Shown: positions 8,356-64,000 of the stretch, piece after piece
How the letters are laid out: the number at the start of each line of letters is the position of its first letter
Numbering within the stretch: the stretch's first letter is position 1
Assembly: GCA_031292625.1 (NCBI GenBank)
Contig: JARLGU010000021.1
Coordinates: 44,682 to 108,681 of the forward strand
DNA: 64,000 bases
Direction: 5' to 3'
DNA from: Capsulimonadaceae bacterium
Lineage (GTDB): Bacteria > Armatimonadota > Armatimonadia > Armatimonadales > Capsulimonadaceae
Position numbers and translations under genes: made by a program
Notes under the pieces: model-generated
Told to the model about the DNA's origin: nothing
Seen by the model: only the letters and a program-made list of their open reading frames with translations
The model's database searches: none

Positions 8356-9267
8356 TCAGTTCACGATAAGCACGATCTTGCCGCCAGCGTGGCCGCTCTC
8401 GCTCAGTTCGTGCGCCTTTGCGGCGTCCTCAAGCGCAAACGTTCGGGCAATTTGAACGCGGACCGTGCCGTCGACCACGAGATGAGCGAGACGTTCAAGA
8501 GCGCTTGCGGAACGGGTCGCCGGAGTGCCAGCCGAAAACGCGATACCCAGCTCAAACGCCTGCGGATCCGCGATGGTTACAATGCGCTCTTTACCCCCGC
8601 GCAGTTCTATCAACGCCGGGAGAGCTCCCTTCCCTGCCGCGTCAATTGCGGCGTCGACGCCCTGCGGAGCCAGCGCTCGAACGCTTTCGACCAGCCCGTC
8701 GCCATAAACCACGGCGATCGCCCCAAGCGACGTCACATAGTCGCGGTTCGCGGCGCTCGCGGCGCCGATCACGGTCACGCCGCGTTCGACGGCTAGCTGA
8801 ACCGCAACAGCGCCGACGCCGCCCGATGCGCCGAAAATCAGCAGTGTTTCGCCCTTTGCCGCGCCGACCGCATTCAGCGCGCGTTCTGCCGTTTCGCCAA
8901 TTACGGGGATCGCCGCCGCTAGCGTCCAACTGAGATCAGACGGCTTGATCGCAAACTTGCTTACGAGCGCCAGTTCAGCGTACGATCCTGTGTCGGCCCA
9001 TCCGAGAACCGCGTCGCCAACCGAAACGCCGTCGACGCCGGGGCCGATCTCGTCGACCACGCCGGCAACATCAGTGCCAATTCCGGCCGGCAGCTTTAGC
9101 GCGATATATCCCTTCATTTCGCCGGACCTTACCTTCGCATCGAACGGATTTACTCCCGCCGCCGCAACACGCACGCGGACCTGCCCGGATCCAGGATGCG
9201 GATCGTCCGCCTCGACAAGTCGCAACACATCTGGAGCCCCATACTCGCTAAACTGGATAGCCTTCAT
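8356..9267 (-). CDS. NADP-dependent zinc-independent alcohol dehydrogenase / quinone oxidoreductase (MDR family)
   Basis: MKAIQFSEYGAPDVLRLVEADDPHPGSGQVRVRVAAAGVNPFDAKVRSG...LLIFGASGGVGAVAVQLA; start refined from 9369. Confidence 0.9.
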   Translation of the reverse strand: MKAIQFSEYGAPDVLRLVEADDPHPGSGQVRVRVAAAGVNPFDAKVRSGEMKGYIALKLPAGIGTDVAGVVDEIGPGVDGVSVGDAVLGWADTGSYAELALVSKFAIKPSDLSWTLAAAIPVIGETAERALNAVGAAKGETLLIFGASGGVGAVAVQLAVERGVTVIGAASAANRDYVTSLGAIAVVYGDGLVESVRALAPQGVDAAIDAAGKGALPALIELRGGKERIVTIADPQAFELGIAFSAGTPATRSASALERLAHLVVDGTVRVQIARTFALEDAAKAHELSESGHAGGKIVLIVN

Positions 9268-9396: not shown

Positions 9397-10794
9397 ATGG
9401 AAATTCCCGACGACGAAATGCAGGTCTGCCTCAGCGTTCTTCAGCGTATCGCAAACGCAAGGTGCACAATTCAGCGCAGCGAGCGGTTCAACACGCTGAT
9501 CTCAAAGGTCTACCGCGAGGGCAAACGCTACGACCAGCAAGAGCTAGACCGCCGTCAGAGGGCAGCCGACCGCGAGGTGCAGGCGACCACGGGCATGGTT
9601 CAGATCCAGCGCGACGCGGTTAGTCCGGCCGCGCTCCCGGCCCCGGATGCTCAAACGGACGCCCCTCCGCCGGTGCGCGTGCTGAACCAGCCAGAGGCGT
9701 GCTATATCTGCAAGGCCGAGTTTACCGAAGTCCACTTTTTCTATCACCTGCTCTGCCCAAAATGCGCTGAATATAACTACCGGATGCGCAGTCTTTCCTC
9801 GGATCTGAGCGGCCGGACCGCAATGGTCACGGGCGGCCGCGTTAAGATCGGGCACCAGACGGTCCTGCGGCTTCTTCGAGACGGCGCGAACGTCATCGTC
9901 ACGACGCGTTTCCCGCATGCGGCCGCCAAGCGCCTCTACGCCGAACCGGACTCCGCCAATTGGCGCGACCGCGTCCGCGTCTTCGGTCTCGACCTGCGCA
10001 ACATTCCCACCGTTGAGCTCTTTGCGCAACACCTGTTGGACACGGAGCCATCGATCGACATCCTGATCCACAACGCGGCGCAAACAATCCGGCGACCGCG
10101 CGGGTTCTACAACGAACTCGTCGCGCAGGAGCAGAATCCTCAGGCGTTCCTGCCTGCCGAAGTGCGCCGGCTGGTCGCCAAGGACGCGCCGTCCACGCTC
10201 GCAATCTCCGATAGCTCAACCCTGCTGCCATCGGTCATGCCGACGGTCACCGACGTCCTCCCGGCGGATGCCTTCCACGACAATGAAGAGTTGGCCGATC
10301 AGCGGTCGGAGAACAGTTGGCGATTGAAGCTTGACGACGTGGGACCACAGGAGATGCTCGAGGTGCAGCTTGTCAACTCGGTCGCGCCGTTCTTGCTGAA
10401 CAGCCGCCTCAAGCCGCTCATGATGCGCGCCCCGTTCGAGCGCCGCTTTATCGTAAACGTCAGCGCGATGGAAGGCCAATTCGCGCGCCGCAAGACGATC
10501 TACCACCCGCACACGAACATGGCGAAGGCCGCGCTGAACATGATGACCCGCACATCCGGCGACGATTACGCCCGTGACCACATCTACATGACGAGCGTCG
10601 ATACAGGCTGGGTCACCGACGAAAACCCCGGCCCGCGCCGCATGCGCAAGCAGCAAGAGACCGGCTTCTTCGCTCCCCTAGACATCATCGACGGCATGGC
10701 CCGCATCTACCATCCCATCGCCGCCGGCATCAACGAGCCCGCGGAGCCGTTCTACGGCGTGTTTTTGAAGGACTACGCCGTAACGCCGTGGTAA
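9397..10794 (+). CDS. SDR-family oxidoreductase with N-terminal cysteine-motif region
   Basis: CYICKAEFTEVHFFYHLLCPKCAEYNYRMR then GRTAMVTGGRVKIGHQTVLRLLRDGANVIVTTRFP...YHPHTNMAKAALNMMTRT. Confidence 0.8.
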   Translation: MEIPDDEMQVCLSVLQRIANARCTIQRSERFNTLISKVYREGKRYDQQELDRRQRAADREVQATTGMVQIQRDAVSPAALPAPDAQTDAPPPVRVLNQPEACYICKAEFTEVHFFYHLLCPKCAEYNYRMRSLSSDLSGRTAMVTGGRVKIGHQTVLRLLRDGANVIVTTRFPHAAAKRLYAEPDSANWRDRVRVFGLDLRNIPTVELFAQHLLDTEPSIDILIHNAAQTIRRPRGFYNELVAQEQNPQAFLPAEVRRLVAKDAPSTLAISDSSTLLPSVMPTVTDVLPADAFHDNEELADQRSENSWRLKLDDVGPQEMLEVQLVNSVAPFLLNSRLKPLMMRAPFERRFIVNVSAMEGQFARRKTIYHPHTNMAKAALNMMTRTSGDDYARDHIYMTSVDTGWVTDENPGPRRMRKQQETGFFAPLDIIDGMARIYHPIAAGINEPAEPFYGVFLKDYAVTPW

Positions 10795-22569: not shown

Positions 22570-22655
22570 ATTCGATAGCTCGGCCTTCTTCCCGAAGGAA
22601 GACCCGGTAGCTTTGCGTCACCGCCTCACGGCGGCTTTGCCATTGTCGTAGATGA
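22570..22655 (-). ncRNA. GEMM-I (cyclic-di-GMP-I class) riboswitch-like aptamer
   Basis: Minus strand ACAAUGGCAAAGCCGCC-GUGA-GGCGGUGACGCAAAGCUACCGGGUCUUCC-UUCG-GGAAGAAGGCCGAGCUAUCG: GGCAAA, GNRA-capped P1b, GACGCAAAGC junction, second hairpin, and 3' GCUAU able to pair with 5' AUGGC. Confidence 0.72.
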
Positions 22656-39666: not shown

Positions 39667-40506
39667 CTAATGGTGATCTCCTTTATCGTCTGGGGTGATA
39701 TCGCTGCCGCGCTTCGGGACTACGGGGCCGAATGCACTGATAACGCCGTCGATCTGGCGCAGTGCGATGCCCTGCAGCTCTTTCGGTAAATCCTTGATCC
39801 GGATCACGATGTCGGTAATTTCGCTGTCGGTGCTCGAAGGATGGGCATCCACGTTCGGTGGATCACTTGCTGCGCTTCCGGGAGCGCGCGCACGATCAGC
39901 CCCGATGCCGCGCGCACTCTCCCATATTGCAGGCTTCCCGGCGGCAATCGTCCACCAACTGACCGCCTCCACCCTTGGCGCATGCTCATGTGGCCAAGGG
40001 TTAGGTATATCCTCGTCGCCGGCACGAACATAAAATACGCGTCTGAGGAATCCTTCTATACTTCTCTCCGCTCCGGGAGCGAGTTCCGCGTAGGCCACGA
40101 TTTTATCGCCTTGCTGATGGCGACGAATAGGTTTAGTTCGAGTCGGTGTGTATTTCGCAGTGCACCGAACGAATGCGTATTTCTCAAGCTCCTCCCTGTC
40201 CATTACAAATATAATCGTAGACTCGCCACGCCACGCGTTCATGACTCCAGCAGGGATCTGACCGGAGGTATCAATTTCATCGTGCAGCCTAAGCGATTCG
40301 CTAAATCCTACAAGGAACCCGAAGTCTACGCCCAGCGTCGATGCTAGTCTCGACAGGTCCTCGAGGGATAGTGCGCGCTTTCCACTCTCATAAAGGGATA
40401 TGGCTTCTCCCGTAACGCCGAAACGAACACCGAGCGAGCTCTGAGGCCATCCCCTGCTCAAACGAGCCTTCTTAATTCTCTGGCCTATCTCTGTTTGAGA
40501 AATCAT
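39667..40506 (-). CDS. XRE/CI-like prophage repressor
   Basis: IGQRIKKARLSRGWPQSSLGVRFGVTGEAISLYESGKRALSLEDLSRLASTLGVDFGFLVG; divergent from Cro-like ORF. Confidence 0.82.
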   Translation of the reverse strand: MISQTEIGQRIKKARLSRGWPQSSLGVRFGVTGEAISLYESGKRALSLEDLSRLASTLGVDFGFLVGFSESLRLHDEIDTSGQIPAGVMNAWRGESTIIFVMDREELEKYAFVRCTAKYTPTRTKPIRRHQQGDKIVAYAELAPGAERSIEGFLRRVFYVRAGDEDIPNPWPHEHAPRVEAVSWWTIAAGKPAIWESARGIGADRARAPGSAASDPPNVDAHPSSTDSEITDIVIRIKDLPKELQGIALRQIDGVISAFGPVVPKRGSDITPDDKGDHH

Positions 40507-48584: not shown

Positions 48585-50894
48585 ATGGCAGGACGAAAGA
48601 GCAAGAGCGCGGTGATTGAGACGGAGGAGGGACCCTCACCCCAGCCCTCTCCCATAGGAATGGGCGAGGGAGTTGCGGAAATGGCCGTAAAGGCGTCCGT
48701 GGGGCCGTCCATGGCGCGTTTGGCGGATGGGCCGTCTGTTGCGACGGCGGCGGACGGACGGCCGCTTGCGGAGGGCGATGATCGAACGTTTGGCGGATGG
48801 GCGCAGGGATCGGCCGAGCAAGAGATCCCAGTTGTTCGGATCCATGCGAGTTCGTTCAACCCGAGGAAGGCATTTGACGAGGCCAAGACCGTTAGCCTGG
48901 CAGCTTCTATGGGTAAGCACGGGCTTTTGTCGCCGATCATCCTTCGGCCATCGGAAGAAGCAGAAGGGGATTTTGAGATCGTCGCCGGAGAGCGGCGGTT
49001 TCGCGCGGCGTTGACGCTTGGATGGAATGCGATCCGGGCGATTGTCCGTGAGGCGGGAGACCTGGCGGCGGAGGAGATCGCCATTATTGAGAACGTGATG
49101 CGTGAGAACCTGAACGCGGTCGAAGAGGCGGAAGCGTATCGCCGGCTTCGTGAGATCCATGGGCTTAAGGTCGAAGAGATCGCCGAGCGGGTTGGGCGTT
49201 CGCGGAGCGCGGTGTCGAACGCGATGCGGCTGCCGGAGGGCGTCCGGGCGCTGGTCGCATCCGGGGAGCTGTCTGAGGCGCATGGACGGGCGATCGTGCG
49301 CTGGGCGCCATTCGAGCCGATCATGAGTGAGCTTGCTCGGATCGTAATCGATGACAAGCTATCGTCTAAAAGCATTGAAGGCGAGTTGAATAGTCAACTT
49401 ACGCACGCGCTCGAACAAGGAGGCGCTATTCGCAGTTTGGACGGTTATCACAGAGATTTCGATACGAATATCTGCCGCGAATGTCCGTTTGACGCGATGC
49501 GCAATCTTCGGGAGCCGACAGATTGGAGCGCGAACCGGTATTGTCTGCGGCCGGATCACTTCGCCGAGCTCGTGGCTATGAAGCAAAACGAGGAGCGCAT
49601 CAAAGCCGAGGAGCAAGCCGCTAAGCACGGGGAAAGCGCCGCCAAGCAGATCGAGAAGAAGCGAGCGTCGGTTGACAAAGCAGTTACGGCCGTTCACGCG
49701 GCGAACACCGCGCCAGAGCGTAAGGCTGCCGAGCGCGAGCTCGCGGCCGCAATGAAGGCGATCGAACTCGTAGCTCCTGGCGTATGCGGCGAAGACGGCG
49801 CTCCCATTCCTGCGGAAGCGATCGGAAAAGACTCGGATGCAGCGTCGCCCGCGCTGCCGGACATCCACGGCATGAAGCAAGGATCTTATATCGACATTTG
49901 GAGTGAAGGCCAGCGACCGAAGGGTTGCTCTCCGAACTGCCCATGCAACGTCAAGGCGCGCGCCGCGGGCCAGGTGCGGACGATCTGTTGCGATCCCGGC
50001 AGGTGGCGTTCGCTCTCCTCTATGGCTAAGCGAGAGGCGACGAAGAGGCGCAAGGAGGCGATCGAGAAAAACTTGGCGCGCGCATCCAAAGTGGTTTGGA
50101 TGAGCGGCTATTCCGAGATGGCCAGCCGGCGCGTCATTGCCATGCTTGTCGCTCGGCTTGTTAGCAGTGTGGGGCTCGATACGCGCCGTGCCGCCTTGGA
50201 AGCGCTCGTGATGGAGCGGCCAAAGATCGAAATAGGCGCATTAAGCCCGCTCGATACCGCTAAGGACATCTATCGAGATGCCGATGCGGAGTGCTTCCGG
50301 AAGGCCTTCATGACACTCCCGCCCGATACGGCGCTTGCATATGCCGCTGAGTGTCTCGTGGCTGTCGAGATCCGGAATGCCGGAGACAGCAAGGATATGC
50401 GAACGCCGCTGATGGATTGGTTGATCGGGAGGCTGCTGGAAAGCGGCGAGAGCGCGGAGGCGGTGGTTTCGCGCGGAACGGGCGCCGGGTCAGATCAGGA
50501 GCCGGAGACCTACGTTGCCGCCGCAGACGCTAGACCGGAGACCTACCTTCCCACAAGCGGGCCCCTTCCTCCCGAAACGGGAGGAGACCCGGAGGGAGAG
50601 GATGCCGACGACGACAGTATGGACGCGGACGGCCTTAGCGATGGCGGGTTGGAGGCGAGGGAGTGGATTGAATGTCACGGGGTACCCGGGAGTTACCACG
50701 GCGATCTGCGCGTAGGGGACCGTGTATTGTTCGATGAACCGATGCTTCCTGAGGGGGATAGGATCGGCGTCTTGATTTGTGTTGGATCGCCGGAGAGCAT
50801 CGTGAAGTTTGACACGACCGGGAACAGCGCGTCTTGGCCGAATGAGCGATTGAGCAAGGTTGCAGAGTCTGCAGGGGTGGGGGAAGCGAAATGA
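48585..50894 (+). CDS. ParB-like nuclease-domain/HTH protein
   Basis: IPVVRIHASSFNPRKAFDEAKTVSLAASMGKHGLLSPIILRPSEEAEGDFEIVAGERRFRAALTLGW...EAYRRLREIHGLKVEEIAERVGRSRSAVSNAMRL. Confidence 0.88.
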   Translation: MAGRKSKSAVIETEEGPSPQPSPIGMGEGVAEMAVKASVGPSMARLADGPSVATAADGRPLAEGDDRTFGGWAQGSAEQEIPVVRIHASSFNPRKAFDEAKTVSLAASMGKHGLLSPIILRPSEEAEGDFEIVAGERRFRAALTLGWNAIRAIVREAGDLAAEEIAIIENVMRENLNAVEEAEAYRRLREIHGLKVEEIAERVGRSRSAVSNAMRLPEGVRALVASGELSEAHGRAIVRWAPFEPIMSELARIVIDDKLSSKSIEGELNSQLTHALEQGGAIRSLDGYHRDFDTNICRECPFDAMRNLREPTDWSANRYCLRPDHFAELVAMKQNEERIKAEEQAAKHGESAAKQIEKKRASVDKAVTAVHAANTAPERKAAERELAAAMKAIELVAPGVCGEDGAPIPAEAIGKDSDAASPALPDIHGMKQGSYIDIWSEGQRPKGCSPNCPCNVKARAAGQVRTICCDPGRWRSLSSMAKREATKRRKEAIEKNLARASKVVWMSGYSEMASRRVIAMLVARLVSSVGLDTRRAALEALVMERPKIEIGALSPLDTAKDIYRDADAECFRKAFMTLPPDTALAYAAECLVAVEIRNAGDSKDMRTPLMDWLIGRLLESGESAEAVVSRGTGAGSDQEPETYVAAADARPETYLPTSGPLPPETGGDPEGEDADDDSMDADGLSDGGLEAREWIECHGVPGSYHGDLRVGDRVLFDEPMLPEGDRIGVLICVGSPESIVKFDTTGNSASWPNERLSKVAESAGVGEAK
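48629..48674 (+). repeat. Type-B repeat in-frame in the ParB-like CDS
   Basis: GGGACCCTCACCCCAGCCCTCTCCCATAGGAATGGGCGAGGGAG encodes ..GPSPQPSPIGMGEG.. Confidence 0.8.
50502..50586 (+). repeat. Type-A repeat in-frame in the ParB-like CDS
   Basis: GGAGACCTACGTTGCC...GGAGACCTACCTTCCCACAAGCGGGCCCCTTCCTCCCGAAACGGGAGGAG encodes PETYV...PETYLPTSGPLPPETGG. Confidence 0.85.
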
Positions 50895-51463
50895 TCTGCG
50901 AGACGATGTTTGACGTTGAGAAGATCGGGATTATTGACGAGCCGCCTGTCATCGGGTCGGACCGGCGCGTGCGGGCTTGGGATATGGGCGGCTCCGGGCG
51001 TGCCGATTACACCGCTGGCGTGCTAATGGCGGAGATCAAACCAAGGATGAGCACGAACGTATTCTTCATCGTGCTCGATGTTGCTCTGTTTCGTTCGACG
51101 TTCGAGGCGCTCACCGATAGGGTCCGGCGCATAGCTGATGAGGATGGGAAAGACGTTCTCATTGCTCTTAAGAAGCCTCAGTGTGGCTTTGCATGTGACG
51201 CAGTAATGCAGGTTCGGCAGGCGGTCAGGGGCTATCGCGTTGCTGAGTGGCGCAACCCGGGACCACCGACTGCCCGCGCGTCCGCATTTGCAAAGGTTGT
51301 AAACTCGAGGAGGGTTGCTCTCGCGCGAGGTGCCTGGAATGATTCGCTTATCGAGGAGATGAGGCTTTTCCCGCTTTGCGTGTACGACAACCAGGTTCAG
51401 GCGGCGAGCGACGCTTTCTTGGAACTCGCGCATCCGAGCGCACCTTTATCCCGTGGCGATTGA
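50891..51463 (+). CDS. Stand-alone protein resembling a terminase large-subunit nuclease (RNase H-like) domain
   Basis: RVRAWDMGGSGRADYTAGVLMAEI... and ...YDNQVQAASDAFLELAHP parallel AWDTALK...DESALVTIG and HDDITDAFVYAVKRF of the TerL at 54481. Confidence 0.5.
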   Translation: MICETMFDVEKIGIIDEPPVIGSDRRVRAWDMGGSGRADYTAGVLMAEIKPRMSTNVFFIVLDVALFRSTFEALTDRVRRIADEDGKDVLIALKKPQCGFACDAVMQVRQAVRGYRVAEWRNPGPPTARASAFAKVVNSRRVALARGAWNDSLIEEMRLFPLCVYDNQVQAASDAFLELAHPSAPLSRGD

Positions 51464-51560: not shown

Positions 51561-51911
51561 ATGATTAACAGCGTTGTATTGTCGGGACGGATCGGGAAGG
51601 ATCTGGAGGTTAAGACCACGCCGTCCGGGGTGCCGGTTTTGACGTTCGGGCTTGCAGTGACCAGGCCGCAGTCATCGGAGAGCCGCCAGGCCGGCGAGGA
51701 TCCGGTTACGGATTGGTTTAATTGCGTCATTTGGCGCGGGCTGGCAAACTATGTCGGCACGCACGGGAAGAAGGGTGGCCGGGTCGAGGTGCGCGGGCGG
51801 CTGCAAAGCCGGAAGTATACGGGCCAGGACGGGACCGAGCGTTCGGTGGTCGAGGTGCTGGTCGAGGATGCCACGGTGATCGATTACAAGGAGTGGGAGG
51901 GAGCGGGATAG
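51561..51911 (+). CDS. ssb: Single-stranded DNA-binding protein
   Basis: MINSVVLSGRIGKDLEVKTTPSGVPVLTFGLAVTRP...DWFNCVIWRGLANYVGTHGKKGGRVEVRGRLQSRKYTGQDG. Confidence 0.93.
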   Translation: MINSVVLSGRIGKDLEVKTTPSGVPVLTFGLAVTRPQSSESRQAGEDPVTDWFNCVIWRGLANYVGTHGKKGGRVEVRGRLQSRKYTGQDGTERSVVEVLVEDATVIDYKEWEGAG

Positions 51912-51948: not shown

Positions 51949-51977
51949 TTGACAATGGGAATCGAGTGGTATATCAT
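51949..51977 (+). promoter_or_regulatory. Promoter TTGACA-17-TATCAT preceding the structured leader
   Basis: TTGACA 51949-51954; TATCAT 51972-51977. Confidence 0.7.
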
Positions 51978-51984
51978 AAAGGTA

Positions 51985-52192
51985 GACAATCAATTGAGGT
52001 TATTCTGGCGATAGGACCTCGGCCCACGCCCTTTTCGGGTATGTGGGGAACGCTGACCACAATGGCAATAGTTCGCTACATTGGGTCAGGTGCGTCTGAA
52101 AGTTTCACGTTGCTCCGCTCTTCCGGGGGCGGAGAGGATCGAAATCACACAGGCTGTTTCAAGGCTTCGCGCTTATTGCGCGAGGCCTTTTT
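51985..52192 (+). ncRNA. Candidate structured leader RNA / prophage ncRNA ending at intrinsic terminator
   Basis: Hairpins CCCAC..GTGGG (52023-52047), TGACC(A)CAATG..CATTGGGTCA (52054-52088), CTCCGC..GCGGAG (52113-52134), then terminator; no convincing CDS. Confidence 0.55.
52163..52192 (+). terminator. Intrinsic terminator
   Basis: GGCTTCGCGC-TTATT-GCGCGAGGCC-TTTTT. Confidence 0.85.
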
Positions 52193-52214
52193 GACGTTCA
52201 TGGGGAGATCGAAA

Positions 52215-52586
52215 ATGCCTCGGATTACCTGGGAAGATGTCGCGCGGGATAAGACGCCTGTTGAAGTGGCCGCCGTGTTTATGCGTTGTTCCGTCAAGAC
52301 CGCGAAAGTGCGGCTGCATGAGGCGCATAACCGCATGGAACGCGATCGTCAGCGAAGAATGAGACAGACGCGGCCCGTTGTCGGAAAGGCCACTAATTGC
52401 GAGGCGCGCGCTGTGAGCGTGGGGGTCGTCGGGACGCTGCCGAAGAAAACCTTTGCTGACGAGCTCGGGCGCAAAGCGCCGGGGCCGTCGCATACGCTGC
52501 CGACGAACGTCAAGCAGCACTATTACGCGGCGCGGGATAGCTTTTTCCGGGATCGGGATCCGGAGCTCGCGGATCGGGGCGTGTAG
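52215..52586 (+). CDS. Hypothetical phage protein (possible HTH), first gene after the leader terminator
   Basis: MPRITWEDVARDKTPVEVAAVFMRCSVKTAKVRLHEAHNRMERDRQRR; GGGGA RBS upstream. Confidence 0.5.
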   Translation: MPRITWEDVARDKTPVEVAAVFMRCSVKTAKVRLHEAHNRMERDRQRRMRQTRPVVGKATNCEARAVSVGVVGTLPKKTFADELGRKAPGPSHTLPTNVKQHYYAARDSFFRDRDPELADRGV

Positions 52587-53419: not shown

Positions 53420-54064
53420 ATGGAATCTTTAAGCGAGGGGAATTCCTTTAAGTGGGATTCTCGAAAAGAGCGGGCGGCCGCGTTGAAGGCAGCGGGGCGA
53501 ACGACGTCCGAGATCGCGCATGATTTGGAACTCTCCGCAAGATGTATTCAGAAGTGGGCTTCGCATAAGAAATTCACTGACCGCGTTTCCGAATATGTTC
53601 GGATGTACCGTCGTGAGATCAAGGATTTCTCGATCGCCTCGCTAACCGATCGTGTGGATGCCAAAGATCGTCGCTGGAAGGCGCTGCAGCAGATTATCGA
53701 TTCGCGCGCGGAGGCGTTCGCAGAGATCGAAGAGACGGGCGGCGCGAGCATCCCGGGCCGCGTTAAGATCGAGCCGGGCATGGGTACCGGGCTCATGAAC
53801 AAGGCTGTCACGGTTGTCTCGACGAAGGACGGCGACCGCGTGACTACTGAGTTCAGGCCGGATCTCGGGATTGTGTCCGCGATGACCGCGCTTGAAGAGA
53901 GTGCCGCGAAAGAGCTGGGGCAGCTGCCGTCGCGGATGGAGCTGACCGGTAAGGGCGGCGGCCCCGTGCGCGTCATGGACGAACCGGACTTGTCCGGTCT
54001 CACGGAAGCGGAGCTCGCGCAGCTGGAAGCGCTGCTTGTGAAGGGGAGCGGAGAGAGCGAATAG
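53420..54064 (+). CDS. Terminase small-subunit-like protein
   Basis: N-terminal HTH (ALKAAGRTTSEIAHDLELSARCIQKWASHKKF), acidic C-terminus, position upstream of TerL. Confidence 0.6.
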   Translation: MESLSEGNSFKWDSRKERAAALKAAGRTTSEIAHDLELSARCIQKWASHKKFTDRVSEYVRMYRREIKDFSIASLTDRVDAKDRRWKALQQIIDSRAEAFAEIEETGGASIPGRVKIEPGMGTGLMNKAVTVVSTKDGDRVTTEFRPDLGIVSAMTALEESAAKELGQLPSRMELTGKGGGPVRVMDEPDLSGLTEAELAQLEALLVKGSGESE

Positions 54065-54066
54065 CC

Positions 54067-54384
54067 CGAAACGCGTGGGCCCCTTCCTGCGCAGAGACCT
54101 ACCTTCCCTGCGCAGAGACCCACCTTCCCTGCGAAGAGACCTACCTTCCCTGCGAAGAGACCTACCTTCCCGCAAGCGGGCCCCTTCCTCCCGAAACGGG
54201 AGGAGTTCAGAAAGACCTACCTTCCCACTTCCCCTTCGAGGGGCACTCCCGGCCGGAGACCTACCTTCCCGCCGAGGAGATCTACCTTCCCACTTCGTGG
54301 GTCCCTTCCTCCCTAAATGGGAGGAGTCTCGGAAAGACCTACCTTCCCACTTCGTGGGCCCCTTCCTCCCTGAACGGGAGGAGC
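54067..54384 (+). repeat. Cluster of type-A repeats including 21-bp tandem half-units
   Basis: Four near-tandem GCAGAGACCTACCTTCCCTGC-like units, then multiple full ACCTACCTTCCC...CCTCCCGAAACGGGAGGAG copies. Confidence 0.9.
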
Positions 54385-54480
54385 TCAGATGTCCGCGAGT
54401 AAGTTTCGCGGGCGATGCCCTCATGGCCGGGATAAACTCCTCGATCCCGCTGTGGGGGCTAATTTTTTGAAGGTGCGCAT

Positions 54481-55998
54481 ATGGGACTTATTCCGTCGCT
54501 TAGGGCAGTCCGCGCTGAAACGTGCCGGAGGCATTTGAGGGACTTTGTCCGCTGGAGCTGGGATGTCCTTGAGCCGGAAACGCCACTGCAGTGGAACTGG
54601 CATATAGATGCCATTTGCGACCACAAGGAAGCGCAATTTTTTGACTGGCTGGCCATTCGCAAGGCGCTGAAGAAGGGCGAAACGCCTCCTCCGATGCGGA
54701 TGCAGAACCTGGTCATGAATGTGCCGCCCGGGTCGACCAAGTCCCGTATCATGATGGTCGACTATCCCGCGTGGGTATGGCTGCATGCTCCCACGTGGCA
54801 CGGGATCTGTGTATCGAGCGCAAAGCTGGCCACGCGCGACTCGCTGCTTACGCGTCGATTGATCGAGAGTGATTGGTACCAGGAGTGGTTCCAGCCGGAA
54901 TGGGGCTTTACCGCCGATCAGAACGCGAAGCTGAACTTTATCAACACGCTCGGGGGGCAGCGGGAGGCGATCACGCCGGGGGCGTCGATCGTCGGCAACC
55001 GCGGCGATGAGCTGCTGATGGATGATCTCAACGATCCCGACGACGAAAACGAGTCGGCGAAGCGCGAGCAGATCAATGACTGGTGGGACATGGGGGCCGG
55101 AAACCGGCTTAACGACCTGCGGTATAGCATGCGCTCGATGATCCAGCAGCGGATGCACCACGAGGATGCAACCGGCCACTTCACCCAATCCATGGAGTGG
55201 GTGAAGGTCGTCATCCCGATGGAGTTTGAGCCGTCGCGGGCAACGAAGACCCCGATTGGTTGGATTGATCCGCGTATGATCTCTGGGGAGCTGATGTTCC
55301 CTGCCCGATTTCCCGCAAGCGTGATCGAGCAGGAGAAAAAACGGCTTGGGACGTACGGCTACCAGGGGCAATATCAGCAGGAGCCGTCCCCGCCGGGAGG
55401 GTCGATTTTCAAGGAGAGCTGGTTCGGCTCATACAAGTCGCTTCCCGCGATGAAGGAAGTTTGGACCGCGTGGGATACCGCGCTTAAGACCAAGGAAGAG
55501 AATGACGAGAGCGCGCTTGTAACGATCGGGCTTGGCGAAGACGGCAATCTGTACGTGCTGCGGATGTGGCATGGCCGCGAGGAGACGCCCGATATTGCGA
55601 GACGGCTCATTCAGCACGCGGGACACCTAAGACAGCTTTATGGCGACCGGTATCGGGGCGATTACATAGAGGACGCGCCTGGCGGTACTGCGCTCATGCA
55701 GTATTTGCGGCGCACGAGCTCGGCGCTGGCGGTGATCCCGATCCGGGCGGCGACCGACAAGGTTTCGCGGGCTCATGTGGTTTCGCCAATTTGCGAGGCG
55801 GGACGCGTGCTCCTGCCGGACCCCTGGGCATATGCGAAGGTGAGTGGGTGGCGCAGGGATTTACTTGCGAACCTGACGTCCTTTCCGAAAGCCTCCCACG
55901 ATGATATTACCGACGCCTTCGTGTATGCTGTCAAGCGATTTATGAGTTCGATGGGCACTGGCAAGAGCCGTCGCGGGACGGCTGGCGGGTGGGTGTAG
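54481..55998 (+). CDS. terL: Phage terminase large subunit
   Basis: NVPPGSTKSRIMMVDYPAWVWLH, RGDELLMDDLNDPDDENES, AWDTALKTKEENDESALVTIG, HDDITDAFVYAVKRF. Confidence 0.93.
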   Translation: MGLIPSLRAVRAETCRRHLRDFVRWSWDVLEPETPLQWNWHIDAICDHKEAQFFDWLAIRKALKKGETPPPMRMQNLVMNVPPGSTKSRIMMVDYPAWVWLHAPTWHGICVSSAKLATRDSLLTRRLIESDWYQEWFQPEWGFTADQNAKLNFINTLGGQREAITPGASIVGNRGDELLMDDLNDPDDENESAKREQINDWWDMGAGNRLNDLRYSMRSMIQQRMHHEDATGHFTQSMEWVKVVIPMEFEPSRATKTPIGWIDPRMISGELMFPARFPASVIEQEKKRLGTYGYQGQYQQEPSPPGGSIFKESWFGSYKSLPAMKEVWTAWDTALKTKEENDESALVTIGLGEDGNLYVLRMWHGREETPDIARRLIQHAGHLRQLYGDRYRGDYIEDAPGGTALMQYLRRTSSALAVIPIRAATDKVSRAHVVSPICEAGRVLLPDPWAYAKVSGWRRDLLANLTSFPKASHDDITDAFVYAVKRFMSSMGTGKSRRGTAGGWV

Positions 55999-56010
55999 AG
56001 GCGCGAGAAA

Positions 56011-56235
56011 GAGCCCTCACCCCACCCTCTCCCGCAAAGCCGGGCGAGGGAGCCGGAGCCTATCTTCCTCCCGCTGAAGAGACCTACCTTCCCGTGCAGA
56101 GACCTACCTTCCCACTTCGTGGGCCCCTTCCTCCCGCAACGGGAGGAGTTTGGGAGAACCTACCTTCCCACTGAAGACGGCAGGCCCCTTCCTCCCGCGC
56201 CCTTCGAGAACATCAGAGTCTCCGAGCGGGAGGAG
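56011..56235 (+). repeat. Type-B plus several type-A repeats; the last copy has a 27-nt insertion in its hairpin loop
   Basis: CCCTCACCCCACCCTCTCCC..GGGCGAGGGAG; ...CCTCCCGC[GCCCTTCGAGAACATCAGAGTCTCCGA]GCGGGAGGAG. Confidence 0.85.
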
Positions 56236-56486
56236 TTCCAGATTTACGGTTTGCGGAGGGCTACGGGATCGCGCAAAGGTTTACAGCCACGGGTTACGGC
56301 CTAGATAAAGCGCCGCCGCGTATATTGCCGAAAGGCCCATGTACAACGCCGCGTCTTGGCTTCCTTTCATGGGGATCCCGTCCCTTCGCAATATATTTGT
56401 GTGGGTGTCATCGGTTCGAGGCTCGCTCAGGCCGCGCATTTAAGAACGTTCGTAGAACGTTTACATCTTTCCATCAGGTTCAGTCA

Positions 56487-58701: not shown

Positions 58702-60207
58702 ATGGCGAATGCGGAGGAATTTGCGGCGATTGTCAGGGCGGCGCGTTCTGCTCAGGTTCGGCTGGATGCTAAGACAATCAGGGATGTGGACGGCCTCTTG
58801 GCTGCGGCGGCCGCGCAAATCAGCGCCGATATCCGGAGCGTTCCGCGCGGAACGTTAAGCGACCGTTACCGCCGGGAAATTGTCAAGGAATTGAATGGGA
58901 CGCTCGATACCCTGCGTATAAGCTATAAGGCCACACTTGATGGAGGGATCGATAAGGCGGCGAAGATCGCGGTCGAACGGGAACAAGGCATTCTCTCCGC
59001 GCTTAAGACCAACTGGCGGGAACTCGCGCCGGGGCACGCTGCGTCGCTTTTTGGGTCGGCCGATAAGATTGGCGTCGAGTTCGCGCGCGTCCCGGCTCAA
59101 GTGCTTGATCGCCTCTATGCTCGCACGTATAGCGACGGTCTGACGCTCTCGAAGCGCCTCTACAATATGGACCGCGCAGCGCGGAAGGCGGTTGCAGGCG
59201 AGATTTACAAGGCGATCGCGACGGGCGCGAGCGCACGCAAAACGGCAAAGGCGATCGAACCGCTCTTGACGGCGGCGGGATCCGAGAACGTGCGCTATAA
59301 TGCGCTACGGATCGCTCGGACGGAGATCGGCACGGCGTTTCGCGAGGGGCACATTGCGACGGCGACGGACGGGCAGGGGAAGCTCCATCCGTGGCTACGC
59401 GCGATCGGCTGGAGGCTCAGTGCCAGCCATCCGCGACGCGATATTTGTGATGCTTGGGCTGGCGATGACTACGGCCTGGGCGCAGGGAACTACCCGGATG
59501 CCGGGAGCTTGCCGCCGGGGCATCCGCACTGCATGTGCTATTCGGTTAGTTTGATAGCGGGCGTGGATGCGGAGTTCACCGGTTACGCTCCTGAGCCGGA
59601 TGCGTGCCCGGCGTCGCAGATCAAATATTATGGGCAGGATCAGGAACGGACATCCACGAGCCGTGCGGTCCGTCAGCTGCGGGGAGAGGAATTAGCGAAC
59701 CCTTCGCCTAAAGAAGCTCATGTGCTTCCTGAACATCTCGCCAAGCAGATCCCTGATGAAATACGCTCCGGGCTTGTCAAGCCGCATCCCGATGTGGAAG
59801 TCTACGAGCAATCCGGGTATAAGGAGGATAGCCGTGAGCGCACGATTGCCGCGCGCGTTGCGGAGTCCGGATCAACTGTCATTCTGCGCAGGAAAGACGA
59901 AACGCCCAATGAGACGAGTTTCGACGCTTTCATGGAAATCGATGGGCGTATGGAGCCGGTCGAGTTTAAGCGGATTACCGAAGCGGCCGTTAATTTGGCT
60001 GGGGTCGCCGATGCTCAGTTGCGAAGCGCAAAGAAGCAAGCCCAGAACGTCTTGATTTATGTGGACCGGGCCGACTATAATAACCAGCTGCAGGACATTG
60101 AAGCGGGCCTCAGTCTCCGGTTAGCGAGGACCAAACGAGATGGCACGGCAATAAAGCGTGTGCTATTGGTCACGCCGGACGGGGTCATAAGAGAGATAGC
60201 GCCATGA
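58702..60207 (+). CDS. MuF-type minor head protein with candidate C-terminal nuclease toxin domain
   Basis: MuF core: LRIARTEIGTAFREGHIATA...ASHPRRDICDAWAGDDYG...LPPGHPHCMCYSV; C-terminus ETSFDAFMEIDGRMEPVEFKRITEAAVNLAGVADAQLRSAKKQAQNVLIYVDR resembles CdiA_C-type tRNase. Confidence 0.72.
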   Translation: MANAEEFAAIVRAARSAQVRLDAKTIRDVDGLLAAAAAQISADIRSVPRGTLSDRYRREIVKELNGTLDTLRISYKATLDGGIDKAAKIAVEREQGILSALKTNWRELAPGHAASLFGSADKIGVEFARVPAQVLDRLYARTYSDGLTLSKRLYNMDRAARKAVAGEIYKAIATGASARKTAKAIEPLLTAAGSENVRYNALRIARTEIGTAFREGHIATATDGQGKLHPWLRAIGWRLSASHPRRDICDAWAGDDYGLGAGNYPDAGSLPPGHPHCMCYSVSLIAGVDAEFTGYAPEPDACPASQIKYYGQDQERTSTSRAVRQLRGEELANPSPKEAHVLPEHLAKQIPDEIRSGLVKPHPDVEVYEQSGYKEDSRERTIAARVAESGSTVILRRKDETPNETSFDAFMEIDGRMEPVEFKRITEAAVNLAGVADAQLRSAKKQAQNVLIYVDRADYNNQLQDIEAGLSLRLARTKRDGTAIKRVLLVTPDGVIREIAP

Positions 60208-62395: not shown

Positions 62396-62642
62396 GCCGC
62401 CCCACCCTTATTGCCATTCGAGAGCCTCATAATCTTCGACGGGCGAGGGAAACCTACCTTCCCGCAAGCGGGCACCTTCCTCCCGAAACGGGAGGAGCTC
62501 AGAAGGCCTACCTTCCCGCTTCCCATTCGAGGGGCCTCAGTATCCTGTGCAGAGACCTACCTTCCCCCTTCGTGGGGATCACGAGGCCTTAAGAGACCTA
62601 CCTTCCCACTTCATGGGCCCCTTCCTCCCGCAACGGGAGGAG
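62396..62642 (+). repeat. Mosaic of type-B (with loop insertion) and type-A repeats
   Basis: GCCCCACCCT[TATTGCCATTCGAGAGCCTCATAATCTTCGA]CGGGCGAGGGA; then several ACCTACCTTCCC...GGGAGGAG copies. Confidence 0.85.
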
Positions 62643-62660
62643 ATAGGAGAGACATATTTT

Positions 62661-62984
62661 ATGCCGCGAGTTATTTGCCGTAAATACAGTACGTTCTATG
62701 ACGCCAAGAATGGCGTCCAATTCAGTCCGATCGTCGATGTGTCGAAGCAATGCTATGTTGGTCTTGCTGTCGTTGAGGGCGATTTGGTTGAAATCTACGA
62801 GGGGCGCGATGGTTTCGATGTCGTCACGGACGAAGAATATCTCGCCATTATCAATCCCGCTCCGAAGGCGGCGGCCGCAACTGCCAGCGAGACCGCAACT
62901 GGGACGCCGGCGGCGGCCGATGGCGGCGCGGCGCAGCAGGATGATCCATTGGATCCGCCGAGCGCCAAGCCCGCTGCGTCCTAA
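62661..62984 (+). CDS. Hypothetical phage head protein
   Basis: MPRVICRKYSTFYDAKNGVQFSPIVDVSKQCYVGLAVVEGDLVEIYEGRDGFDVVTDEEYLAII. Confidence 0.55.
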   Translation: MPRVICRKYSTFYDAKNGVQFSPIVDVSKQCYVGLAVVEGDLVEIYEGRDGFDVVTDEEYLAIINPAPKAAAATASETATGTPAAADGGAAQQDDPLDPPSAKPAAS

Positions 62985-63858: not shown

Positions 63859-64000
63859 TGTGTCAGGAATCGGGTTAAACTAGACCACATGGAATCGGCA
63901 TGAGTAGACCGGGGTGAATCGGCATATGTAGGCCACCCGGAATCGGCATGTCTAGACCAGGTGGAATCGGCATATCTAGACCACTTTGAGTATCGCGATG
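63859..64000. mobile_element. Likely IS21-family element end with ~5 imperfect 24-25-bp direct repeats (rest outside window)
   Basis: TGTGTCAGGAATCGGGTTAAACTAGACCACAT / GGAATCGGCATGAGTAGACCGGGGT / GAATCGGCATATGTAGGCCACCC / GGAATCGGCATGTCTAGACCAGGT / GGAATCGGCATATCTAGACCACTTT. Confidence 0.65.

Follow-up and report, generated by a model that had tools for sequence, protein, structure and literature searches.

A candidate type I-C RNA anti-CRISPR in the leader of the packaging genes of a Capsulimonadaceae prophage

A short leader in front of the packaging genes of a prophage carries a solitary copy of a CRISPR repeat that closely resembles the repeats of the host's own type I-C array. The leader lies in a stretch of 64,000 nucleotides, the whole of which we refer to as the window. 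We consider it quite probable that the leader RNA is a prophage decoy that uses the host CRISPR repeat to tie up the type I-C machinery. The most likely reading of the locus is a well-delimited candidate gene for a type I-C RNA anti-CRISPR (Racr), and this displaces the antitermination switch that a preliminary description had put forward. The same description had offered as a fallback that a short prophage RNA acts alone; this is the option that the analysis supports, with the RNA now identified as a solitary type I-C repeat unit. Coordinates are collected in Table 1.

Table 1. Features of the leader and its two neighboring genes (window positions)
Feature	Position	Strand	Basis
Upstream neighbor, phage single-strand DNA-binding protein (ssb)	51561-51911	+	Pfam SSB 1.6e-26, phrog_44
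Sigma-70 promoter, TTGACA-17-TATCAT	-35 51949-51954, -10 51972-51977	+	consensus scan, 11/12 bases
Predicted free-standing RNA, ~205 nt, candidate Racr	51984-52192	+	promoter, terminator, fold
Structured 5' domain, ~125 nt	51984-52108	+	folds
Solitary type I-C CRISPR repeat unit, GTTGCTCCGCTCTTCCGGGGGCGGAGAGGATCGAAAT	52109-52145	+	alignment to host's own repeats
Hairpin of the repeat (9 bp, 4-nt loop), presumed Cas5c site	52113-52134	+	folds of unit and host repeats
crRNA 5' handle-like 11-nt segment, AGGATCGAAAT (host AGGATTGAAAC)	52135-52145	+	alignment
Intrinsic terminator, 12-bp stem, TTATT loop, T5	52161-52192	+	fold
Downstream neighbor, no family match	52215-52586	+	Pfam/PHROGs

A solitary repeat unit in the leader

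Comparison of the leader with its own genome returned the full self-match and 18 further matches, all of the latter confined to the bases around 52109-52144. Aligned with the repeats of the host array, the unit is identical at 33 of 37 positions to the closest variant and at 32 of 37 to the commonest one; against the 32 observed, the best that shuffled repeats reached in the window was 26 of 37. The 4-5 bases that distinguish the unit from the array repeats, two of which are in the handle, fall in the loop, in the handle, and at stem positions where a G-U pair takes the place of a Watson-Crick pair. The hairpin of the prophage unit is the same as that of the host repeat in both stem and loop size, and its pair probabilities are mostly 0.99. 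CRISPR-repeat mimicry accounts for the main third of the leader. The 5' handle of type I-C crRNAs is 11 nt long, and if the hairpin were cleaved at its 3' base, after 52134, precisely 11 nt of repeat would remain.

Phage solitary repeat units can act as RNA anti-CRISPRs, and nine tested candidates, one of them type I-C, inhibited CRISPR-Cas (PMC10651486). SRUFinder, the tool for recognizing such units, asks for 90% identity, 90% coverage and 41.1 bits; with the host's own repeat variant as the reference, the unit aligned by BLAST with 91.7% identity over 36 of its 37 nt and 48.1 bits. It is intergenic within a mobile element, between the prophage ssb and packaging genes, with no cas genes adjacent, and the promoter at 51949-51977 lies 132 bp upstream of it, inside the 250 bp allowed. 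No full or partial repeat occurs within 100 bp, and a search of these flanks for a second repeat or half repeat gave only weak local alignments. A host CRISPR-Cas system of the same subtype, usual for solitary repeat units (83% of cases), is present in the genome as a complete type I-C operon with an 18-repeat array.

The unit appears to be restricted to this genome. Its pattern, with up to 2 mismatches allowed, was found in no other genome among 291 of the phylum, and none of the viral or genome contigs contained it in exact form; records of this genome may be missing from these collections. Related leaders or repeats were likewise absent from phages, plasmids, viral contigs, genome contigs and the phylum. 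Rfam, at both gathering and permissive thresholds, yielded at the leader only a chance-level sX14 match and a sub-threshold CRISPR-DR9 match.

Promoter, fold and terminator of the leader

All the elements that the preliminary description had read from the bases of this leader held up. The promoter that it proposed matches the consensus almost fully (Table 1). Promoter-like sites as a class are not above chance in the 4 kb around the leader, since 2 were found where 1.6 are expected, and the site at 51949-51977 is a far better match. From its position, transcription is expected to start near 51984. The claimed structured leader was confirmed by folding 51984-52196, which gave -87.4 kcal/mol compared with -67.3 +/- 4.5 for dinucleotide shuffles (z = -4.4), none of 200 shuffles being as stable. 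The claimed terminator is also there, a strong one with its stem followed by the run of T, and is absent from the list of a simple terminator scan. The ribosome binding site and ATG described for the next gene were recovered as a Shine-Dalgarno sequence, GGGGAG, at 52202-52207 and a start codon at 52215.

A stop-free frame does cross the leader, in frame with the gene at 52215. Its GC content by codon position is 0.47/0.57/0.56, compared with about 0.6/0.47/0.7 in most neighboring genes, and we rejected translation of the leader on this difference in composition. Because of this non-genic composition and the good Shine-Dalgarno sequence in front of 52215, the leader is treated as non-coding, in agreement with the earlier statement that it holds no convincing coding sequence.

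The 5' domain folds into hairpins near 51996-52020, 52023-52047 and 52053-52089. The last of these had been described as a 10-bp stem at 52054-52088 with one bulged A and a 14-nt loop; the bulge and the loop are as described, and the stem is 11 bp, spanning 52053-52089. No relatives of the 5' domain were detected in its own genome, phages, plasmids or relatives' prophages, and such a structured domain is unusual for a Racr. In the predicted fold, the GAAAT end of the repeat, which belongs to the handle, pairs with an upstream GTTTC. This pairing is only suggestive, because 9 of 200 shuffled flanks hid the GAAAT end likewise; it could either hinder or help Cas binding.

CRISPR-Cas systems of the host

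The type I-C array lies on contig C34 and consists of 18 full repeats and a truncated last one, at a spacing of ~72 bp with spacers of 33-38 nt. Adjoining it are cas3, cas5c, cas8c, cas7, cas4, cas1 and cas2, assigned by NCBIfam to type I-C or general cas families. The operon beside the array is complete and its cas3 intact, the gene encoding 758 aa and being open through its N-terminal part. A second system (G000:C55:34000-53000) is assigned to type I-B on the basis of its cas5 and cas1 and has an array of 39 repeats of GCTTTAATCGCACCTTTGAGGAATTGAAAC, unrelated to the type I-C repeat. The prophage unit shows no similarity to this I-B repeat, and no copy of the I-B repeat was found in the prophage. 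The type I-B Cas1, of 428 aa, aligns with the Cas1 model over two segments that are separated by additional sequence.

Spacers of both arrays were compared with the prophage and none matched, so that they give no sign of a need for inhibition. Elsewhere in the genome, another prophage-like region (G000:C34:136000-155000) is matched by spacers of both systems: I-C spacer 7 at 31 of 34 positions, preceded by TGC, and I-B spacer 26 at 33 of 37. The matched sites lie at 9013-9046 (-) and 10078-10114 (+) of that region. These matches amount to imperfect self-targeting, which mutation or an inhibitor could account for.

The prophage and its relatives

The packaging and head genes that had been claimed downstream are present. 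After the gene at 52215 come an HNH endonuclease, TerS, TerL and portal (Pfam/PHROGs), and the prophage also contains ParB, a TerL-like nuclease fragment and the major head protein. A repressor-like HTH gene is found at 39670-40506. Because the contig stops at window base 64000, the prophage cannot be followed to its right end.

The protein encoded at 52215 has no relatives in viral contigs or in the order. TerL relatives were found, the closest prophage TerL at 55%, and a TerL search of genome contigs gave no match. Six genome regions and seven viral loci with TerL relatives contained no I-C-like repeat. The prophage with the closest TerL lacks the repeat unit, and no match to cas8c was obtained in the genome that carries it, which is consistent with, and weakly supports, a link between the repeat unit and the host system. 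Of four cas8c loci in relatives, one yielded a repeat, and it differs from the prophage unit.

Several other features of the window were observed. A short ORF upstream of ssb, at 50891-51463 (+), has a match to large terminases that is limited to their RNase H-like C-terminal part; the full TerL is a separate gene at 54481. An interspersed sequence recurs at 53990-54480, 55989-56300 and 62411-62683, at ORF ends and between phage genes, giving peptides such as PLRGPLPPATGG and SHFVGPFLP. The ORF at 58702-60207 (+) encodes a phage Mu F-like head protein, at the end of which is a weak match, below the curated cut-off, to a CdiA C-terminal (contact-dependent inhibition) domain. Outside the phage genes, a c-di-GMP-I riboswitch aptamer occurs at 22571-22651 (-) with 61.9 bits.

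Proposed mechanism and alternatives

The steps that we infer, from transcription through binding and cleavage by Cas5c to inhibition of immunity, would proceed as follows. From the strong promoter a short RNA would be transcribed as far as the terminator, and it would bear one mimic of the host repeat. In type I-C systems the repeat is processed by Cas5, and Cas5c, as the repeat endonuclease, would bind the hairpin of the mimic. A possible cut after 52134 would leave an 11-nt end that resembles the handle but is followed by no real spacer, and Cas5c, perhaps along with Cas7 and Cas8c, would be held in unproductive complexes. The decoy RNA would in this way compete with host crRNAs for Cas5c and its partners, and fewer working crRNA complexes would form because these proteins are trapped. 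Points against the decoy are the base differences from the array repeats, the absence of spacers matching this prophage, the lack of a recognized acr gene next to the unit, and the absence of the unit from the prophage with the closest TerL.

A variant in which the 5' domain contributes is improbable: the domain and the handle-hiding GTTTC would make a locked decoy, or Cas5c binding or cutting would alter read-through of the terminator. If Cas5c-dependent read-through were true, the packaging operon would sense host CRISPR activity.

The nearly intact repeat and handle would also allow a complex to form in which the host I-C machinery uses the sequence after the repeat, CACACAGGCTGTTTC..., as a crRNA-like guide to repress a host or phage gene, and repeat-like sequences are known to bring about Cas-dependent repression (PMC10651486). 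We regard this as quite unlikely, since just 15 nt separate the repeat from the terminator stem and no convincing target emerged. A genome search for TTC followed by the first 15 bases returned nothing with fewer than 2 mismatches, and the matches with 2 mismatches numbered 5 compared with 6 for a reversed control; a 10/12 match in the I-C leader was equalled by 50 of 400 random 12-mers. Just as small is the chance that the repeat is an array relic or an integration platform, that is, a passenger or a site that recombines with the host array, with no RNA function. The sequence is clearly derived from, or a mimic of, the host array, but it sits between internal phage genes on a different contig from the array, has its own promoter and terminator and a preserved hairpin, and lacks a spacer or a partial second repeat.

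Very unlikely, finally, is the switch of the preliminary description, in which a phage factor lets polymerase past the terminator at 52161-52192 into the late genes. The resemblance to the lambda pR'/6S leader with tR' and to the HK022 put RNAs is real in layout: a promoter, a short structured RNA and a terminator precede late genes, here the packaging genes, and in the 23 nt from terminator to start codon no further promoter was found. Against it, the Rfam scans matched no Q site or put element, and leader searches of phages, plasmids and relatives' prophages found no related leader, leaving the claimed Q- or put-like switch without specific support beyond its position, although read-through into the gene at 52215 may still occur. 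The late genes could also be transcribed from upstream of ssb, and an antitermination switch leaves the CRISPR repeat unexplained; the lambda 6S leader and the HK022 put RNAs are not known to contain a CRISPR repeat.

Comparison with known systems and significance

Taken as a decoy for the type I-C machinery, the leader RNA can be set beside known repeat-bearing elements. RacrIC1, from a Bifidobacterium pseudocatenulatum prophage, is likewise a solitary type I-C unit that mimics the repeat hairpin, but it lies downstream of acrIC5, 11 nt away, and shares one RNA with it (PMC10651486). The candidate comes with a promoter of its own, a terminator and a folded 125-nt 5' domain. Beside it no known acr gene was recognized, and a defense-family scan of the neighboring small proteins gave nothing clear. 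RacrIF1, from a Thiocystis violascens prophage, is also a small RNA encoded between prophage genes, driven by its own promoter and bearing a single repeat mimic, but it is of type I-F, with processing by Cas6f and filling by Cas7f (PMC10651486); here Cas5c is the expected first target because type I-C is without Cas6. Viral CRISPR mini-arrays similarly place a host-like repeat on a virus and carry spacers against related viruses (PMC11656645), in contrast to the one repeat and no spacer of the candidate. We rejected assignment to this class, which is defined by at least 2 repeats enclosing a spacer.

The candidate adds to the RNA anti-CRISPRs a free-standing type I-C form with its own promoter and terminator. 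It leads to a testable prediction, that a prophage RNA shuts off one named CRISPR-Cas system within the same cell. A comparison of unusual prophage leaders with the rest of the genome in which they lie can bring to light anti-CRISPR RNAs overlooked by family libraries.
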